NCBI GenBank assembly: GCA_020630555.1
Contig: JAHDBE010000001.1
Location: forward strand, 1 to 40,749
Direction of reading: 5' to 3'
Length of the DNA stretch: 40,749 bases
DNA from: Saprospiraceae bacterium
GTDB taxonomy: Bacteria > Bacteroidota > Bacteroidia > Chitinophagales > Saprospiraceae
Shown: one piece after another, positions 335 to 7,915 of the stretch
How the letters are laid out: each line of letters begins with the position of its first letter
How positions within the stretch are numbered: position 1 is the stretch's first letter
Notes under the pieces: model-generated
Told to the model about the DNA's origin: nothing
Database searches by the model: none
What the model saw: the letters and a program-made list of their open reading frames with translations, nothing else
Translations under genes and position numbers: made by a program

Positions 335-877
335 TTGAATTTTGCAACGATCATAAGCGGCCTAAGACGAAAAGATCATGCATCTTTTAAGGAATTGGTG
401 TACTGCTATAGCAGTAGGCTTATGACCGTTGCACAAATTTATGCTCGTACTGCAGAAGATTCTAAAGATATCTTGCAAGATGCCTTCATCATAATTTTCA
501 GGAAAACTGAAAATTTTGTGGGAGATGAAGAATCAGCCTACCTCGCCTGGATGAAATCTATTGTCCGAAATACAGCAATTAGTCGGTATCAAAGAATGAA
601 GTTTTCAAACGAATTATACGGCGTCGATTATGTTGATCCATATTCTGATCCCGAGGCATATACCCAATTGGGTGAAAAAGAAATTATGAAAATGGTTTTA
701 TCTCTTCCTGATGGCTATCGTCAAGTTTTCGCATTGTATGCCATTGAGGGATTTTCTCACAAAGAAATTGCTGACCAACTAGATATTAAAGAGGGTACAT
801 CTCGCTCCCAATATGTGCGAGCGCGTAAAATGTTACAACACAGAATTGCAGAATATTCTAAAATCGCAACATCATGA
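335..877 (+). CDS. RNA polymerase ECF-type sigma factor (sigma-70 family, RpoE-like)
   Basis: This 180-residue protein has the two-domain layout of extracytoplasmic-function sigma factors. Region 2 is near residues 12-80, with the AEDSKDILQDAFIIIF stretch typical of the -10 recognition and core-binding helices. Region 4 is near residues 118-170, with a helix-turn-helix around GFSHKEIADQLDIKEGTSRS. The TTG start at 335 is used because the next ATG, at residue 30, would cut off the first region 2 helix. The stop overlaps the ATG of the next gene by four bases (ATGA), a sign of translational coupling. It probably directs core polymerase to an envelope-related regulon and is held by the downstream membrane protein; that partnership is inferred from gene order. 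Confidence 0.88.
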   Translation: MNFATIISGLRRKDHASFKELVYCYSSRLMTVAQIYARTAEDSKDILQDAFIIIFRKTENFVGDEESAYLAWMKSIVRNTAISRYQRMKFSNELYGVDYVDPYSDPEAYTQLGEKEIMKMVLSLPDGYRQVFALYAIEGFSHKEIADQLDIKEGTSRSQYVRARKMLQHRIAEYSKIATS

Positions 878-2271
878 ATGATTCACTTAATGATAAAATT
901 CGAAAAGCTTCTGAATCCTTTTCGACGCCAGTGGACGCCGGAGAAATATGGGGCGGTATTGAAGAAAAAATGACCTCTGAAAAAGACAATAGAAGATTCC
1001 TCTGGCTTTTTCTTTTTGGTCTAATTATCCTAAGCTTTGGAGGTATTTCTTATTCTGTTATATATAATGATCACGATAATTTAAGCGAAAACTACAACCA
1101 AACGATTACTACTAACTCCAATCGGTCACCGCAATCAAACACTGAATATGAATCCTCGAGTAGTATGAATTCGATTGAGGGAAATGCCTTAGATCAAGAA
1201 AAAATAGCTTCTGAATTCAATAGCGAAAACGTAGAAAAAAACTTTGACCAAGATTTTAAAACCTCGACTAAAGAATCCGTAAAAATACCTGAGGTTTCGA
1301 GTGGTAATGGATTTATAAAAAACCAAGTAAACCAACATCCTATTGCCCAGAACGGAAACGCAAATTATACATCGCAAGAAGAAAGGAAAGTTGATCACAG
1401 AATTCACTTAATCTCTAAGACAAACCCTGTTCTATTGACGAAAGTCAAAGAAAATAATAATAGAAAAACAACAACAGTTGAGCTAATCCCTTTATCACTA
1501 GCTTCAATAAATAAAACTCCACGAGCGATTAGCCTAGAGACTAATGTGGTAGAGCTGAAAAATAACAGAAGGGATAGAAAGTGGCACATCGGGACTTGGG
1601 CGGTAAACTCCTCCTTTGGGATATGGCATAAAAATTATTCTACAGATTTTATGTCCGATCATATCGACTCAAGAAGCTCTACGGAGTCTTCATTAGAATA
1701 TTATAGTTTAGGCATTGAAAAACCAGTTTGGGATTACTCTAACTTTAATTTCTATTTCGGAATAAATTATCGACGATTAAATGAAGAATTCACATGGTCC
1801 GGCTCCTATAAAATATTAGAGGAAGGGACATATATCGATACGATTTTAATAAATGCACCCGGAGACACGAGTGTATCTTATGTAAATGGACTCTATGAAA
1901 CTAGAGTTGATCGGGACATGAAGGTATATAATCATTATAATCAGTTTGAAATACCCTTTGGGGTAAGGTACCGTATTAAACTTAGTTCTGGAGATGTGTC
2001 CTTTGGCATCAATTCAGCGGTGCAACTACATCAAAAAGTTTCTGGGTATTTCTTAAATTTCGAAGGCATACCAAATCAATATTCACAGGGATTTTCTTTC
2101 ACAAGTTTTCGAACTATGGGTCTTCAAATGCTATATCATCATCAATTCTCCGAAAGAACAAAATTTAGAATAGGAGGAGAATTTATTCGTATGGCGTCAC
2201 AAGATGAAAAAGATAGAACAGCACACTTTAATTTAATTGGAATTAATACCGCTTTCCTTCATCGCTTCTAA
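874..2271 (+). CDS. Membrane-anchored anti-sigma-like protein with C-terminal outer-membrane barrel-like domain
   Basis: The 465-residue product reads as four parts. Residues 1-41 are a charged cytoplasmic stretch with an EIWGGIEEKM motif resembling the N-termini of Bacteroidota anti-sigma proteins. Residues 42-63 are a single hydrophobic helix preceded by Arg-Arg, giving an N-in orientation. Residues 65-235 are an Asn/Ser/Lys-rich low-complexity linker. Residues 237-465 show alternating polar and hydrophobic strands with many aromatics and end in Phe (FLHRF), as in PorT-like outer-membrane barrels. The gene overlaps the ECF sigma gene by four bases, so a role in controlling it is likely. The C-terminal part could instead be a soluble periplasmic beta domain. 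The domain reading is by eye. Confidence 0.65.
   Translation: MNDSLNDKIRKASESFSTPVDAGEIWGGIEEKMTSEKDNRRFLWLFLFGLIILSFGGISYSVIYNDHDNLSENYNQTITTNSNRSPQSNTEYESSSSMNSIEGNALDQEKIASEFNSENVEKNFDQDFKTSTKESVKIPEVSSGNGFIKNQVNQHPIAQNGNANYTSQEERKVDHRIHLISKTNPVLLTKVKENNNRKTTTVELIPLSLASINKTPRAISLETNVVELKNNRRDRKWHIGTWAVNSSFGIWHKNYSTDFMSDHIDSRSSTESSLEYYSLGIEKPVWDYSNFNFYFGINYRRLNEEFTWSGSYKILEEGTYIDTILINAPGDTSVSYVNGLYETRVDRDMKVYNHYNQFEIPFGVRYRIKLSSGDVSFGINSAVQLHQKVSGYFLNFEGIPNQYSQGFSFTSFRTMGLQMLYHHQFSERTKFRIGGEFIRMASQDEKDRTAHFNLIGINTAFLHRF
1435..1448. repeat. Palindrome copy TTGACGAAAGTCAA (perfect, AC/GT variant)
   Basis: A five-base perfect stem around a GAAA loop, inside the anti-sigma-like gene, read in frame as Leu-Thr-Lys-Val-Lys. 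It has the same loop and codon phase as the TTGGCGAAAGCCAA copies, with one compensated base change in each arm. Confidence 0.6.
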
Positions 2272-2878: not shown

Positions 2879-5800
2879 ATGAAAATCAAGTTCACTTTAC
2901 TCTTTTCTCTAATATTTGTATTAACATCTAATGCGCAGTTTAAATCAAAGCAGCTTAAAGAAGTTCAGAATCTAGAACCGTCACAAGCTGTTTCTAAGCC
3001 TTCTAATCTTGAATTTCAAGAACCAAAATTTAATGAAGATCTGTTTGAGCTTCTTCATGATGCACGAACATTTAGTCATCCTCAAAAAGACTTTAAGGTC
3101 GTATCATATGATGAAAATGGTCAGCCTAGATTCCTAAAATCTAAAACAGAGTTTCCTTATGAAGGAAGAGAAAACGCCCTACAAGAATTACGAGATTTTA
3201 TTACATCGGCAGAGCCTTCTTTAGGGTTTAAAGATGAAGAAAATGAATTTGTATTACTCAAATCGTGGACCGATGAGCTAGGTATGGATCACTTTAAATG
3301 CCAACAGGTTTTTAAAGACATTCCCGTGTATGGTGCTGAATTTATCGTTCATGGTAACCAATCCATATTTAACTCCTTATTAGGTAAAACTTATCCAACA
3401 CCTAAATTGGTTTCGACTGTTCCGACTTTGGATCGCGCACAATTATTAAACACTGTGGAGGAAGAATTTGGTCCAATTACTACCCTAAATCCTGATCAAG
3501 AAAAATTAGTCGGAGAGCGTTATAATGCCACACTTGTTATTTATCATTTAGACCAAAATAAGAATAACGAACACCTGGCATATCACGTGAGCTTTTATCC
3601 AGATGTAATTCACAGATATGAATTAATAATTGATGCACATTCAGGAGAAATTCTAAAAAAGTATACGGGCACATGTAAATTGCATTGTACCCATACTGGA
3701 CATGTACATGCTGCAGAATCGGCTTATCCTAAAAAAGACGAATTGAAAACAAGTCTTATGGACGGTCCGGCTACAGCCAATGCGCTCGATTTAAATAATG
3801 TGAACCGCTTAATAAATACATGGGAGGTAGGTTTGGATTATGTTCTTGTAGATGCGTCTAGAACAATGTTTAACGGTGCCCAATCCGTCATGCCGAATGA
3901 GCCTGTAGGTGTCATTTGGACGGTGGATGGCGGAAATGATTCTCCTCAAAACTCAAATTTTCAGATTGCTCATAATGTATCCAGTAATAATACTTGGAAC
4001 AACCAGCAGATAGCCGTTTCTGCTCACTTTAACGCGGGTGAAGCTTACGAATATTTTAAATCTGAATTCGGACGAGAATCCATTAACGGCATGGGAGGAA
4101 ACATTGTCTCTATAATCAATGTCACTGAGCCTAATGGTCAAGGTATGGATAATGCCTTTTGGAATGGATATGCTATGTTCTATGGTAATGGAGATTTTGC
4201 TTTTACAAGTCCGCTTGCCAAAAGTCTTGACGTCGCCGCTCACGAAATGAGCCACGGTGTGATTCAAGCCACTGCAAACTTAGAATACTATGGTGAGTCT
4301 GGTGCTATTAACGAATCCTATGCCGATATTTTTGGAGCCATGGTGGACGGCGATGGATCGGATTGGTTAATTGGAGAAGATGTAGTAAACACTGGTATTT
4401 TTACTGGAGGTGCTCTTCGGAATATGCAGGATCCACATAACGGACAGTCTACCAATAATTTTAATGATGGATGGCAACCTAAAAAGGTTTCCGAAATGTA
4501 CAATGGTCAGGAAGATAATGCCGGGGTACATTGGAATAGTGGTATTCCTAATCACGCGTACTACTTATTCGCGACTGAGGTTGGGACACACAAAGCGGAG
4601 CGTGTATTTTATCGCGCTTTGGAAAATTATCTGACCATGTCTTCACAGTTTGTAGACCTAAGGATCGCTACAGAACAGGCAGTCCAAGATTTATATGGTC
4701 AAGCCGAATTAAACGCACTTCAAAATGCGTTTGATCAAGTAGAAATTTTTGGAGGAGAAGGTGGAAATTACCAAAATGATCTCGAAGAAAATCCCGGAAA
4801 TGATTATATCGTTTTTACCGGCCAAGACAAAGATAGATTGGGACTGATAACTGATGAAGCCACTGTAGCCGCCGATCCTTTAACCCAAAACAATCCCATT
4901 AGTCGACCTAGCGTCACAGATGATGGGTCGGTCATCCTTTATGTTGCTGATGATAAAATGATTCATGCCATCGTTATCGATTGGGATAATGCCATGTTCG
5001 AACAACAAGTCGTTAGTTCTGATCCGATCTGGCGAAATGTCGTGATCTCACGCGATGGAAGGAGATTTGCAGCGCTAACAGAAGATTTTGATAATAAAGT
5101 ATGGGTGTACGATTTCGTCGTAGAAGGCTGGAATGAGTTCGAATTATTTAATCCGACGACGAGTAGTTCTGGAGCGACAACTGGCGATGTTCTATACGCG
5201 GATGCGATGGAGTTTGACCACTCTGGGGAGTCCCTTATTTATGATGCACTAAACGAAATATCTGGACAGTCTGGCCAGACCATCGAGTATTGGGATGTCG
5301 GGTTTTTAAAGGTATGGAACTCTGAAGCGGATATTTTTTCTTTAGGTCAGATCAATAAACTGTTTTCTCAGTTACCCGAAAATGTAAGCGTTGGGAATCC
5401 GACTTTCAGTCATAATTCACCTTATATCGTCGCATTTGATGTGCTAGATAATGGTGAGTATGGTCTCATAGGGTATAATATCGAAACAGGAGATGCTGGG
5501 CTGATTTACGAAAATTCAGGCTTGAGTTATCCAAGTTATTCAAGGCTCGATGACCGCGTTATTTTTAATGCACCCTGGGCACAAGGTATCGACCTCGGAA
5601 TAGTCTCTCTTCAAGGGGACAAAATTACTGCCGTACCAAATAGTGAAGCCTTGTTTTTCGAGGAGGGCCAAATTGCCGTGTGGTTTGCTAATGGAGATCG
5701 TTCTCTTGTAAATACTAATGAGATCCAGATTGATGATTTATCCATAAAAGTGGCACCTAATCCAGTAACGGATGTTCTACAAATAGATTTTGACGCCTTG

Positions 5801-5986
5801 GCTTTCGCCAATGTTAAAGTACAATTACTTAATAGTCAGGGTCAGATAATTTCTTCTGAACGATTTGACTTACGTCAAAGTCAAAAAACAAGAACCATAG
5901 ATATGCAATCTCTACCTAGCGGAATGTATTATCTTCATATTTGGAATGGCAATACTAATAAAGCCATTCCATTAGTGAAGATTTAA
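2879..5986 (+). CDS. Secreted M4 (thermolysin-family) metallopeptidase with propeller-like region and T9SS sorting domain
   Basis: The 1035-residue protein is a secreted zinc endopeptidase. It has a signal peptide (about 1-19) and an FTP/PepSY-type propeptide (about 75-265). The M4 catalytic domain spans about 305-625, with zinc ligands His455 and His459 and general base Glu456 in AAHEMSHG, the third ligand Glu479 in AINESYAD, and the transition-state His551 in GVHWNSG. The part from about 640 to 940 shows repeated strand units such as SRPSVTDDGSVILYVAD and FSHNSPYIVAFD, like a TolB/PD40-type beta-propeller. Residues 950-1035 (KVAPNPVTDVLQ to GMYYLHIW) are a type A T9SS C-terminal domain, implying export across the outer membrane and removal of that domain. 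The propeptide is expected to inhibit and help fold the enzyme. The propeller assignment is by eye. Confidence 0.93.
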   Translation: MKIKFTLLFSLIFVLTSNAQFKSKQLKEVQNLEPSQAVSKPSNLEFQEPKFNEDLFELLHDARTFSHPQKDFKVVSYDENGQPRFLKSKTEFPYEGRENALQELRDFITSAEPSLGFKDEENEFVLLKSWTDELGMDHFKCQQVFKDIPVYGAEFIVHGNQSIFNSLLGKTYPTPKLVSTVPTLDRAQLLNTVEEEFGPITTLNPDQEKLVGERYNATLVIYHLDQNKNNEHLAYHVSFYPDVIHRYELIIDAHSGEILKKYTGTCKLHCTHTGHVHAAESAYPKKDELKTSLMDGPATANALDLNNVNRLINTWEVGLDYVLVDASRTMFNGAQSVMPNEPVGVIWTVDGGNDSPQNSNFQIAHNVSSNNTWNNQQIAVSAHFNAGEAYEYFKSEFGRESINGMGGNIVSIINVTEPNGQGMDNAFWNGYAMFYGNGDFAFTSPLAKSLDVAAHEMSHGVIQATANLEYYGESGAINESYADIFGAMVDGDGSDWLIGEDVVNTGIFTGGALRNMQDPHNGQSTNNFNDGWQPKKVSEMYNGQEDNAGVHWNSGIPNHAYYLFATEVGTHKAERVFYRALENYLTMSSQFVDLRIATEQAVQDLYGQAELNALQNAFDQVEIFGGEGGNYQNDLEENPGNDYIVFTGQDKDRLGLITDEATVAADPLTQNNPISRPSVTDDGSVILYVADDKMIHAIVIDWDNAMFEQQVVSSDPIWRNVVISRDGRRFAALTEDFDNKVWVYDFVVEGWNEFELFNPTTSSSGATTGDVLYADAMEFDHSGESLIYDALNEISGQSGQTIEYWDVGFLKVWNSEADIFSLGQINKLFSQLPENVSVGNPTFSHNSPYIVAFDVLDNGEYGLIGYNIETGDAGLIYENSGLSYPSYSRLDDRVIFNAPWAQGIDLGIVSLQGDKITAVPNSEALFFEEGQIAVWFANGDRSLVNTNEIQIDDLSIKVAPNPVTDVLQIDFDALAFANVKVQLLNSQGQIISSERFDLRQSQKTRTIDMQSLPSGMYYLHIWNGNTNKAIPLVKI
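5798..5811. repeat. Palindrome copy TTGGCTTTCGCCAA (perfect)
   Basis: A perfect five-base stem around TTTC, near the 3' end of the peptidase gene, read as Leu-Ala-Phe-Ala-Asn. It falls within the T9SS sorting domain coding region. Confidence 0.7.
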
Positions 5987-5988
5987 TC

Positions 5989-6987
5989 TTGTTAGACAGA
6001 ATAAAGCAAAAAATATTAATCATTCGATTCAGTTCAATAGGAGATGTTATCTTAACTTCTCCTATTGTTCGTTGTGTCAAGGAGCAATTAGATCCTGAAC
6101 TGCATTTCTTGACAAAATCTTCTATGAGATCATTATTGGAATCCAATCCACATCTGGATAAGATTCATTTATTTAAGGATAATTTTCCAGAATGTATCGA
6201 AGAATTAAAAAGAGAGCGTTTTGATTTTGTGATAGATCTGCATAATAATTTGAGAAGTAAGCGATTTATACGTGCGTTAAATGTTAAGTCCTACAGTTTT
6301 TATAAAGCGAATCTGGAAAAGTGGTTGAAAGTCAATTTAAAATGGGATCGACTACCGAAGAAACATTTAGTAGATCGTTATTTTGAAGGGTTAAAAGAAC
6401 TTGGAGTTGATAATGACGGATTAGGACTCGAATACCATCTTACAAACGAGGATATAACATTGGCGAAAGCCGAAGTAAATCAAGAGAAATTTATTACCGC
6501 CTGTCTCGGGGCCTCCTTTGGAACTAAACGCATTCCTAAAGAAAAATGGATAAAGTGGCTGGAAGCGTCCCCTCTACCCGTAGTGCTACTCGGAGGAAAG
6601 GATGTAACCGAATTATCTAACATTATTGAAAAGATAATAGGCAAATCTATCATTAACCTCGTTGGAAAAGTAAAACTTGGGACGACCGCGGCACTGATAG
6701 AAATGTCTTCTTTGTGTATTTCAGGGGATACGGCGACAATGCATATGGCTGCTGCGTTTAAAACTCCGTTGTTCAGTGTTTGGGGGAATACTATTCCTGA
6801 ATTTGGGATGTTTCCTTATTACGGTAATTCCTCAGCTCACAATATAGATTTTGAAGTTAAAGATTTGCCATGTAGGCCCTGTTCTAAATTAGGACATGAT
6901 ACCTGTCCTAAATCACACTTCAAATGCATGATGGAAATTGATGATTCTAGATTAATTACCGAACTGCATCGACGAATTAATTCTTAG
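5989..6987 (+). CDS. Glycosyltransferase family 9 (heptosyltransferase-like)
   Basis: This 332-residue protein is a GT-B fold family 9 glycosyltransferase, the group of ADP-heptose:LPS heptosyltransferases. The N-terminal ILIIRFSSIGDVILTSPIV is the diagnostic first strand and loop. The C-terminal domain has GKVKLGTTAALIEMSSLCISGDT followed by HMAAAFKTPLFSVWGNT, the family's nucleotide-sugar binding region. A Cys-rich end (CRPCSKLGHDTCPKSHFKC) is common in Bacteroidota members. The start is TTG, two bases after the peptidase stop, which keeps the family's N-terminus; no nearby in-frame ATG would. It probably acts at the cytoplasmic face in lipopolysaccharide or other surface glycan assembly; the exact sugar cannot be told. 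Confidence 0.88.
   Translation: MLDRIKQKILIIRFSSIGDVILTSPIVRCVKEQLDPELHFLTKSSMRSLLESNPHLDKIHLFKDNFPECIEELKRERFDFVIDLHNNLRSKRFIRALNVKSYSFYKANLEKWLKVNLKWDRLPKKHLVDRYFEGLKELGVDNDGLGLEYHLTNEDITLAKAEVNQEKFITACLGASFGTKRIPKEKWIKWLEASPLPVVLLGGKDVTELSNIIEKIIGKSIINLVGKVKLGTTAALIEMSSLCISGDTATMHMAAAFKTPLFSVWGNTIPEFGMFPYYGNSSAHNIDFEVKDLPCRPCSKLGHDTCPKSHFKCMMEIDDSRLITELHRRINS
6460..6473. repeat. Palindrome copy TTGGCGAAAGCCGA (near-perfect)
   Basis: A copy with one mismatch in the right arm, inside the glycosyltransferase gene, read in frame as Leu-Ala-Lys-Ala-Glu. Confidence 0.5.
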
Positions 6988-7020
6988 TTTAAAACTTTTG
7001 ATCTGATCATATGTGTTATA

Positions 7021-7034
7021 TTGGCGAAAGCCTA
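7021..7034. repeat. Intergenic palindrome copy TTGGCGAAAGCCTA
   Basis: This is the only clearly non-coding copy of the palindrome, 30 bases before the SPFH gene. It overlaps a weak promoter-like TATATTGG (7017-7024) that has TTTG 16 bases upstream, so it could lie at the transcription start. Confidence 0.45.
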
Positions 7035-7063
7035 TTAACTGTTTTTTCATAAAAAGATAGATT

Positions 7064-7915
7064 ATGTCATTTAAGCAGGGAAACAACCCAACATTTGTCA
7101 ATCAAGGCAAACTCATTAAATATGCGATTTTTGCATTTTTATTTTTATTCATATTCGCTATTCTCACCAATACGACCTTCCTCACTATAGATCCCGGGAA
7201 GAAAGGCGTCATTTTTAAACGTTTCGCGGGGGGATTGGACAAAGAACAAGTGTATGATCAAGGCTTCCATGTTATTATGCCATGGAACAAAATGTATATC
7301 TACGATGTACGTACAAATGAAGGCCAAGAGAAAATGCAAGTTCTCTCAAAAAATGGATTGAATATCGAAGTGGAATTATCCTATAGATTTATGCCCAAAC
7401 CGGATAAAATTGGATATCTACACGATGAAATTGGATCAGATTATTTACGACGAATAATTGTTCCCGAAATTCGCTCGGCAACCAGAGAGGTTATAGGTAA
7501 ATATCTTCCTGAAGAACTTTATTCGACAAAAAGAGAAGCGATACAAGACGAAATTTTTAATCGTACCTCTGAGGCTGTAGGATCAAAGTATATTACCATT
7601 GATGCTATTTTGATCAGAGAAGTTACATTGCCTCCTAAATTAAGAGCGGCTATAGAACAAAAGTTAGAAGAAGAGCAGATGGCCTTTCAATACGAATTTA
7701 AATTAGATAGAGAACGTAAAGAGGCGGAAAGAAAAATTATCGAGGCTCAAGCAAAAGCGGACGCCAACAAAATTCTAAACGCATCATTAACTAGTAAAAT
7801 ATTACAGGATAAAGGAATTGAAGCCACTCTCGAATTAGCTAATTCACAAAATTCCAAAGTTATAATTGTTGGAAGTGGGGAAGGAGGCTTACCTTTGATC
7901 CTCGGAAACCAATAA
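7064..7915 (+). CDS. SPFH/band 7 domain protein (prohibitin family)
   Basis: This 283-residue membrane protein has a short cytoplasmic N-terminus and one hydrophobic anchor (about 19-40). An SPFH domain follows, starting at TTFLTIDPGKKGVIFKRFAGG and running to about residue 205, with PEIRSATREVIGKY and ITIDAILIREVTLPP being typical of prohibitins. Residues 205-255 form a Glu/Lys/Arg-rich coiled coil ending in the SPFH tail (NSKVIIVGSGEGGLPLIL). Such proteins oligomerise into membrane cages and often modulate FtsH-type proteases. There is no protease gene beside it here. It stands alone and is followed by a terminator. Confidence 0.9.
   Translation: MSFKQGNNPTFVNQGKLIKYAIFAFLFLFIFAILTNTTFLTIDPGKKGVIFKRFAGGLDKEQVYDQGFHVIMPWNKMYIYDVRTNEGQEKMQVLSKNGLNIEVELSYRFMPKPDKIGYLHDEIGSDYLRRIIVPEIRSATREVIGKYLPEELYSTKREAIQDEIFNRTSEAVGSKYITIDAILIREVTLPPKLRAAIEQKLEEEQMAFQYEFKLDRERKEAERKIIEAQAKADANKILNASLTSKILQDKGIEATLELANSQNSKVIIVGSGEGGLPLILGNQ

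Follow-up and report, generated by a model that had tools for sequence, protein, structure and literature searches.

Genes at the 5′ end of the window

The window, by which we mean the whole stretch of 40,749 nucleotides that was analysed, opens inside a lipoprotein gene, and this is followed on the same strand by two open reading frames, one of 180 aa with a TTG start and one of 465 aa with an ATG start (Table 1). Only 3 bp separate the end of the lipoprotein gene from the first frame, and the 4-bp sequence ATGA is common to the stop of the first frame and the start of the second. The product of the first frame is an ECF sigma factor: it matched Sigma70_r4_2 (E = 3.9e-16) and Sigma70_r2 (E = 8.3e-8) in Pfam, exceeded the cut-off of TIGR02937 in NCBIfam, and shares 61% identity with its counterpart in the corresponding operon of a relative (L005). 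The models compared were general ECF models. An ECF sigma gene overlapping the longer gene by four bases was what the first-pass annotation of this DNA had described, and the reading frames and sigma domains bear it out.

Table 1. Positions of features at the 5′ end of the window
Feature	Positions	Strand	Basis
3′ end (109 codons) of the upstream lipoprotein gene; remainder beyond the contig start	2..331	+	Alignment and profile match
ECF sigma factor gene, TTG start; presumed cognate sigma factor (Das-like)	335..877	+	Pfam, TIGR02937, sigma factor of a relative
Gene of the predicted two-membrane Dma-type chain, 465 codons	874..2271	+	Model, Foldseek, profile-profile comparison
ATGA overlap of sigma stop and anti-sigma start	874..877	+	Sequence; identical 4-bp overlap in many relatives
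Predicted cytoplasmic anti-sigma segment, residues 1-43	874..1002	+	Two model helices, invariant Trp26, profile-profile comparison
Single inner-membrane helix, about residues 44-66, N-in (predicted)	1003..1071	+	Hydropathy peak, model helix 37-68
Predicted disordered periplasmic tether, residues 68-236, Asn/Ser-rich	1075..1581	+	pLDDT, composition, no conservation in alignment
Predicted C-terminal outer-membrane beta-barrel domain, residues 237-465	1582..2268	+	Model, Foldseek, homologues' PF13568/PF13505 matches, profile-profile comparison

The neighbours of the pair are the lipoprotein gene upstream and, downstream, a small lipoprotein-like ORF, an M4 peptidase gene and a glycosyltransferase gene. 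The small ORF (2417-2863; 148 aa, ...WTSCKSK) begins 145 bp past the second gene of the pair and has no family match. The M4-type metallopeptidase (2879-5986) carries a propeptide and a sorting tail for type IX secretion, and a glycosyltransferase of the heptosyltransferase family, then a Band_7/SPFH protein, occupy 5989-7915.

The 465-residue chain and its relatives

The chain on its own matched nothing in Pfam, NCBIfam or the sequences of the PDB, and because these single-sequence searches were empty, its relationships are seen only through homologues and profiles. An AlphaFold2 model of the full chain, a check proposed in the first-pass annotation, was built from 40 divergent sequences (12-19% identity) taken from proteins of related loci, with the close relatives from the genome search left out; its overall pTM is 0.49, a value lowered mainly by the linker. 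Helices are predicted at residues 3-15, 22-35 and 37-68, the last of these including the membrane helix, and hydropathy peaks at residue 45 (score 2.15), in keeping with the cytoplasmic N-terminus and single N-in helix that had been read by eye. The N-terminal segment carries a basic patch just ahead of the membrane helix, and its Trp26 (IWxxIE) is invariant in both the near set and the Bacteroidales set, so this would be the obvious residue for a test of sigma binding. In some related loci (L033, L043, L053, L089, L104), the anti-sigma chains have at least two copies of the short W-containing N-terminal segment, and these chains possibly bind more than one sigma molecule.

Beyond the helix, residues 68-234 are disordered in the model (pLDDT 35-46). 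The linker as we delimit it (169 aa) contains 25 Asn and 20 Ser, matching the Asn/Ser-rich linker of about 170 residues first described, and has no conservation in alignment A3. Residues ∼240-464 are modelled as an all-beta domain, mostly with high confidence. Amphipathic-strand character, scored as alternating hydrophobicity, exceeds that of shuffled sequences in the C-terminal region (P = 0.004) and does not exceed it in the linker (P = 0.16), and the last residue of the chain is Phe, so the reading of the C-terminus as amphipathic strands ending in Phe also holds. Compared with solved structures using Foldseek, the model superposed, with moderate quality, on OmpA (9fzc; TMt 0.62, rmsd 5.6), NspA (0.58), Legionella porin III (0.57), OmpT/Pla and OpcA. 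Judged from these matches and from its size, the domain is probably a barrel of OmpA-like dimensions with 8-10 strands.

A direct search found a homologue of the chain in 15 of 61 related genomes, and a profile search found Dma-type proteins in 73 of 80 sampled genomes of the family, often as several paralogues. The source genome has about eight Dma loci (ten profile matches), nearly all of which adjoin a sigma gene; about seven are elsewhere than in the window, on contigs C12, C30, C162, C194, C226, C237 and C309 (L111-L123), the locus on C309 being cut by the contig start. The NCBIfam model named "antisigma" (NF052375) matched other proteins of this genome and none at the window locus. When the phylum was scanned with the sigma alignment, 80 named loci were recovered, nearly all labelled Bacteroidota or its lineages, and because the best match (47% identity) came from an uncultured Saprospiraceae bacterium, we refer to the window as Saprospiraceae-like. 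A complete downstream neighbour of 380-580 aa was present at 52 of the 80 sigma loci, and in most of these proteins a single helix lies near residue 45 and the C-terminus is outer-membrane-like. Dozens of other Bacteroidota genomes have the sigma-Dma pair as well, often with the 4-bp overlap. Such repetition argues that the arrangement is not due to chance, and the functional pairing originally proposed from the overlap is supported by the many relatives in which pair and overlap recur together.

The two ends of the chain were also compared separately, another of the checks proposed at the outset. When the profiles of the window's clade were compared with those of Bacteroidales sigma-linked proteins, the N-terminus matched at 97.4% (E = 1.3e-11), and the barrel matched that of the Dma-like proteins among them at 99.5% (E = 2.2e-23). 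Among the 40 aligned sequences, the window's included, 26 matched OMP_b-brl_2 and 26 matched OMP_b-brl, while the window protein has no family-model match of its own. This last result would fit an inner-membrane anti-sigma factor of the usual kind, with a C-terminal beta domain that is soluble in the periplasm and does not enter the outer membrane, as would the existence of shorter neighbours beside some related sigma genes (200-320 aa, one helix), which are too small for a barrel and seemingly lack one; because of these, the barrel is not universal beside such sigma factors. However, the solved structures that the model resembles are outer-membrane barrels, barrel families are matched by most of its aligned homologues, its profile matches relatives that bear barrels, and its terminal Phe points the same way. 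We therefore consider a soluble domain quite improbable, and the outer-membrane-like barrel of the first reading is supported, as a prediction, by the model, the structural matches, the families of the homologues and the profile comparison.

The upstream lipoprotein and a promoter-like motif

The partial gene at the very start of the window has a product 40% identical, over the aligned part, to the C-terminus of the lipoprotein of locus L124, and the lipoprotein profile matched the window's 5′ end (G000:C56:23-328) with E = 3.5e-11. Two other genes cut at contig ends, L137 (G000:C140) and L138 (G000:C65), are paralogues and not its missing 5′ part, because neither contig overlaps the window start in sequence. 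Thirteen loci of the clade have their upstream sequence complete (L124-L136), and in every one of them a gene for a lipoprotein of ∼590 aa precedes the sigma gene. Across 80 genomes of the family, 99 strong lipoprotein genes were counted, of which at least 63 are followed within 4 kb by a Dma gene of the same orientation. This is a lower bound, since a Dma gene was taken to be missing at contig ends and where a weaker Dma match went unlisted; with few Dma genes in each genome of several megabases, chance would account for well under one. For about a third of the lipoprotein homologues, no Dma gene was listed in the vicinity. In other lineages (L061, L096, L104), different, shorter lipoproteins are found at the corresponding position. 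No report of a lipoprotein-sigma-Dma association was found in the open-licence literature, and as far as that literature was searched, the conserved upstream gene is the one unreported feature of the system.

Most relatives of the lipoprotein (the window gene's own 5′ end is missing) have a lipobox followed by C-R-[KDE]-[DE]-x-[DE], which as a sequence is close to C-X-K-(D/E)2-X, the export signal that moves lipoproteins of Capnocytophaga to the surface (PMC5080379), and the upstream lipoprotein is probably surface-exposed. CarboxypepD_reg domains occur in these proteins. The structure model, made from four input sequences only and poor over the last 130 residues, is a string of beta sandwiches, and its Foldseek partners, adhesins and pilins, resemble it in fold type only.

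The lipoprotein could be either a sensor or an output of the system, and its tight linkage is compatible with both. As an extension of the best explanation given below, and not an alternative to it, the lipoprotein may sense at the cell surface and either dock on the Dma barrel or gate it, the chain then relaying its state to the sigma factor. The conserved order of the three genes, the export-like signal and the multi-domain, adhesin- or pilin-like model would all suit such a role. However, operon partners, and also lipoproteins of which NigD is an example, are sigma-induced outputs in B. thetaiotaomicron and P. vulgatus (PMC13088901; PMC13114119), so the lipoprotein may be a mere product of the regulon, and the homologues that have no listed Dma gene also speak against a sensor; we regard the three-part arrangement as possible but somewhat doubtful. 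Only as a tentative suggestion, then, would Saprospiraceae-like bacteria combine Dma with a dedicated outside-sensing lipoprotein in a surface-to-sigma route, with several paralogues of it in each genome.

The regions upstream of the lipoprotein gene share a promoter-like motif. The 7-mer TGCAGCG is present in 17 of 56 such regions and TGCA[AG]C in 32 of them, where shuffles predict 0.7 and 7.4, respectively. Aligning the regions (L124-L176) by the word TGCARCG, which occurs at 0.07 per kb in all sequence of those loci, reveals an ATTWWA element 17-18 bases after it, with a preferred T-purine ten bases from the start of ATTWWA; the columns of these two elements played no part in picking the sites. 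A plain k-mer search performed better here than a search for five-mer dyads. Elsewhere in Bacteroidota, the sequence preceding 63 sigma-Dma loci is enriched in the related words TGCAACC, TCCAACC and TGCAGCG. The full pattern, TGCARCG-N17-ATTWWA, has only two matches in the source genome and is absent from the window, the promoter of the window operon itself lying beyond the contig. Because the motif stands before many of the operons, and related motifs before sigma-Dma pairs across the phylum, it suggests autoregulation of the operon and would fit an ECF promoter. Such putative autoregulation parallels the induction of the sigma gene that follows deletion of dma2 (Pardue 2026, PMC13088901) and that occurs in P. 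vulgatus under stress (PMC9308784).

Relation to Dma, Reo and Fec systems

We are confident, though short of certainty, that the locus as a whole is best explained by a Dma-type two-membrane anti-sigma factor controlling the sigma factor encoded at 335-877. From homology we infer that the window protein binds sigma and inserts into the outer membrane. Its N-terminal segment would retain the sigma factor beside the inner membrane, in which the one helix would serve as anchor; the flexible tether of ∼170 residues would cross the periplasm, so that barrel and anti-sigma end belong to a single molecule, and the small barrel would be seated in the outer membrane. There, stress, a ligand or a partner protein would bring about a change that passes down the same chain and frees the sigma factor, through either tether proteolysis or a conformational change or pull. 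Once freed, the sigma factor would transcribe its targets, very likely including its own lipoprotein-sigma-dma operon.

The window pair mainly widens the range of the known Dma class, and we find the conserved lipoprotein partner of higher interest than the fusion itself. The published accounts that were read leave open what Dma proteins sense, and the lipoprotein offers Dma systems a concrete candidate for either their missing input or their missing output. With the shared promoter-like motif, regulons could be predicted.

As in the Fec system (FecI-FecR-FecA), an outer-membrane state would be carried to an ECF sigma factor, but Fec uses a separate TonB-dependent receptor and FecR, whereas the window places barrel and anti-sigma on one chain. 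An ECF sigma gene followed by a one-helix anti-sigma gene is also what Fec-type signalling with a diverged FecR would present. However, no FecR domain was found in the pair with Pfam or NCBIfam, no TonB-dependent receptor lies among the pair's neighbours in the window or in the conserved neighbourhood (further upstream is beyond the contig), and the barrel is on the same chain as the anti-sigma segment, making a Fec origin extremely improbable. The first-pass annotation had proposed one chain in place of the three Fec proteins and had asked whether such fusions were already described. They are, and the proposal matches the published Dma/Reo model (PMC13088901; PMC9308784; PMC13114119), in which mutants have sigma-dependent phenotypes and the sigma gene is up on loss of the anti-sigma factor or on envelope attack.

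The gene pair is best read as a new, divergent, Saprospiraceae-like member of the Dma class, a fusion type already described; the assignment was made from the tested features and from homology to Bacteroidales sigma-linked proteins, Dma1, Dma2 and Reo having been compared by description. The Dma proteins of B. thetaiotaomicron begin with an anti-sigma domain, continue through a transmembrane helix and a long disordered tether, and end in a barrel; their genes adjoin an ECF21 sigma gene and are confined to Bacteroidota (PMC13088901). The window pair resembles Dma1/Das1 (Pardue 2024, as cited by Pardue 2026, PMC13088901) and Dma2/Das2 in the predicted layout of its chain, from anti-sigma segment through helix and tether to barrel, in the adjacent ECF sigma gene, and in lying in an operon with further genes. 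It differs from Dma1 and Dma2 in belonging to another Bacteroidota family, and its operon opens with the ∼590-aa lipoprotein gene, whereas none is mentioned for the dma2 operon, in which BT_1555-1557 encode an enoyl-ACP-reductase-like protein and DUF4858/DUF4943 proteins (PMC13088901).

Reo/EcfO of B. fragilis (Ndamukong 2013, cited in later papers, PMC9308784; PMC13114119) and of Phocaeicola vulgatus likewise has an anti-sigma factor, encoded 3′ of its ECF sigma gene, for which a periplasm-spanning region and an outer-membrane barrel are predicted. The P. vulgatus protein, with its periplasm-spanning region and outer-membrane barrel, has been likened to the B. fragilis pair (PMC9308784), and Reo has been described as spanning "all five" compartments (PMC13114119). 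When the EcfO/Reo system is active, the sigma gene is induced (PMC9308784; PMC13114119). EcfO controls NigD surface lipoproteins, whereas the window operon itself holds a different and much larger lipoprotein.
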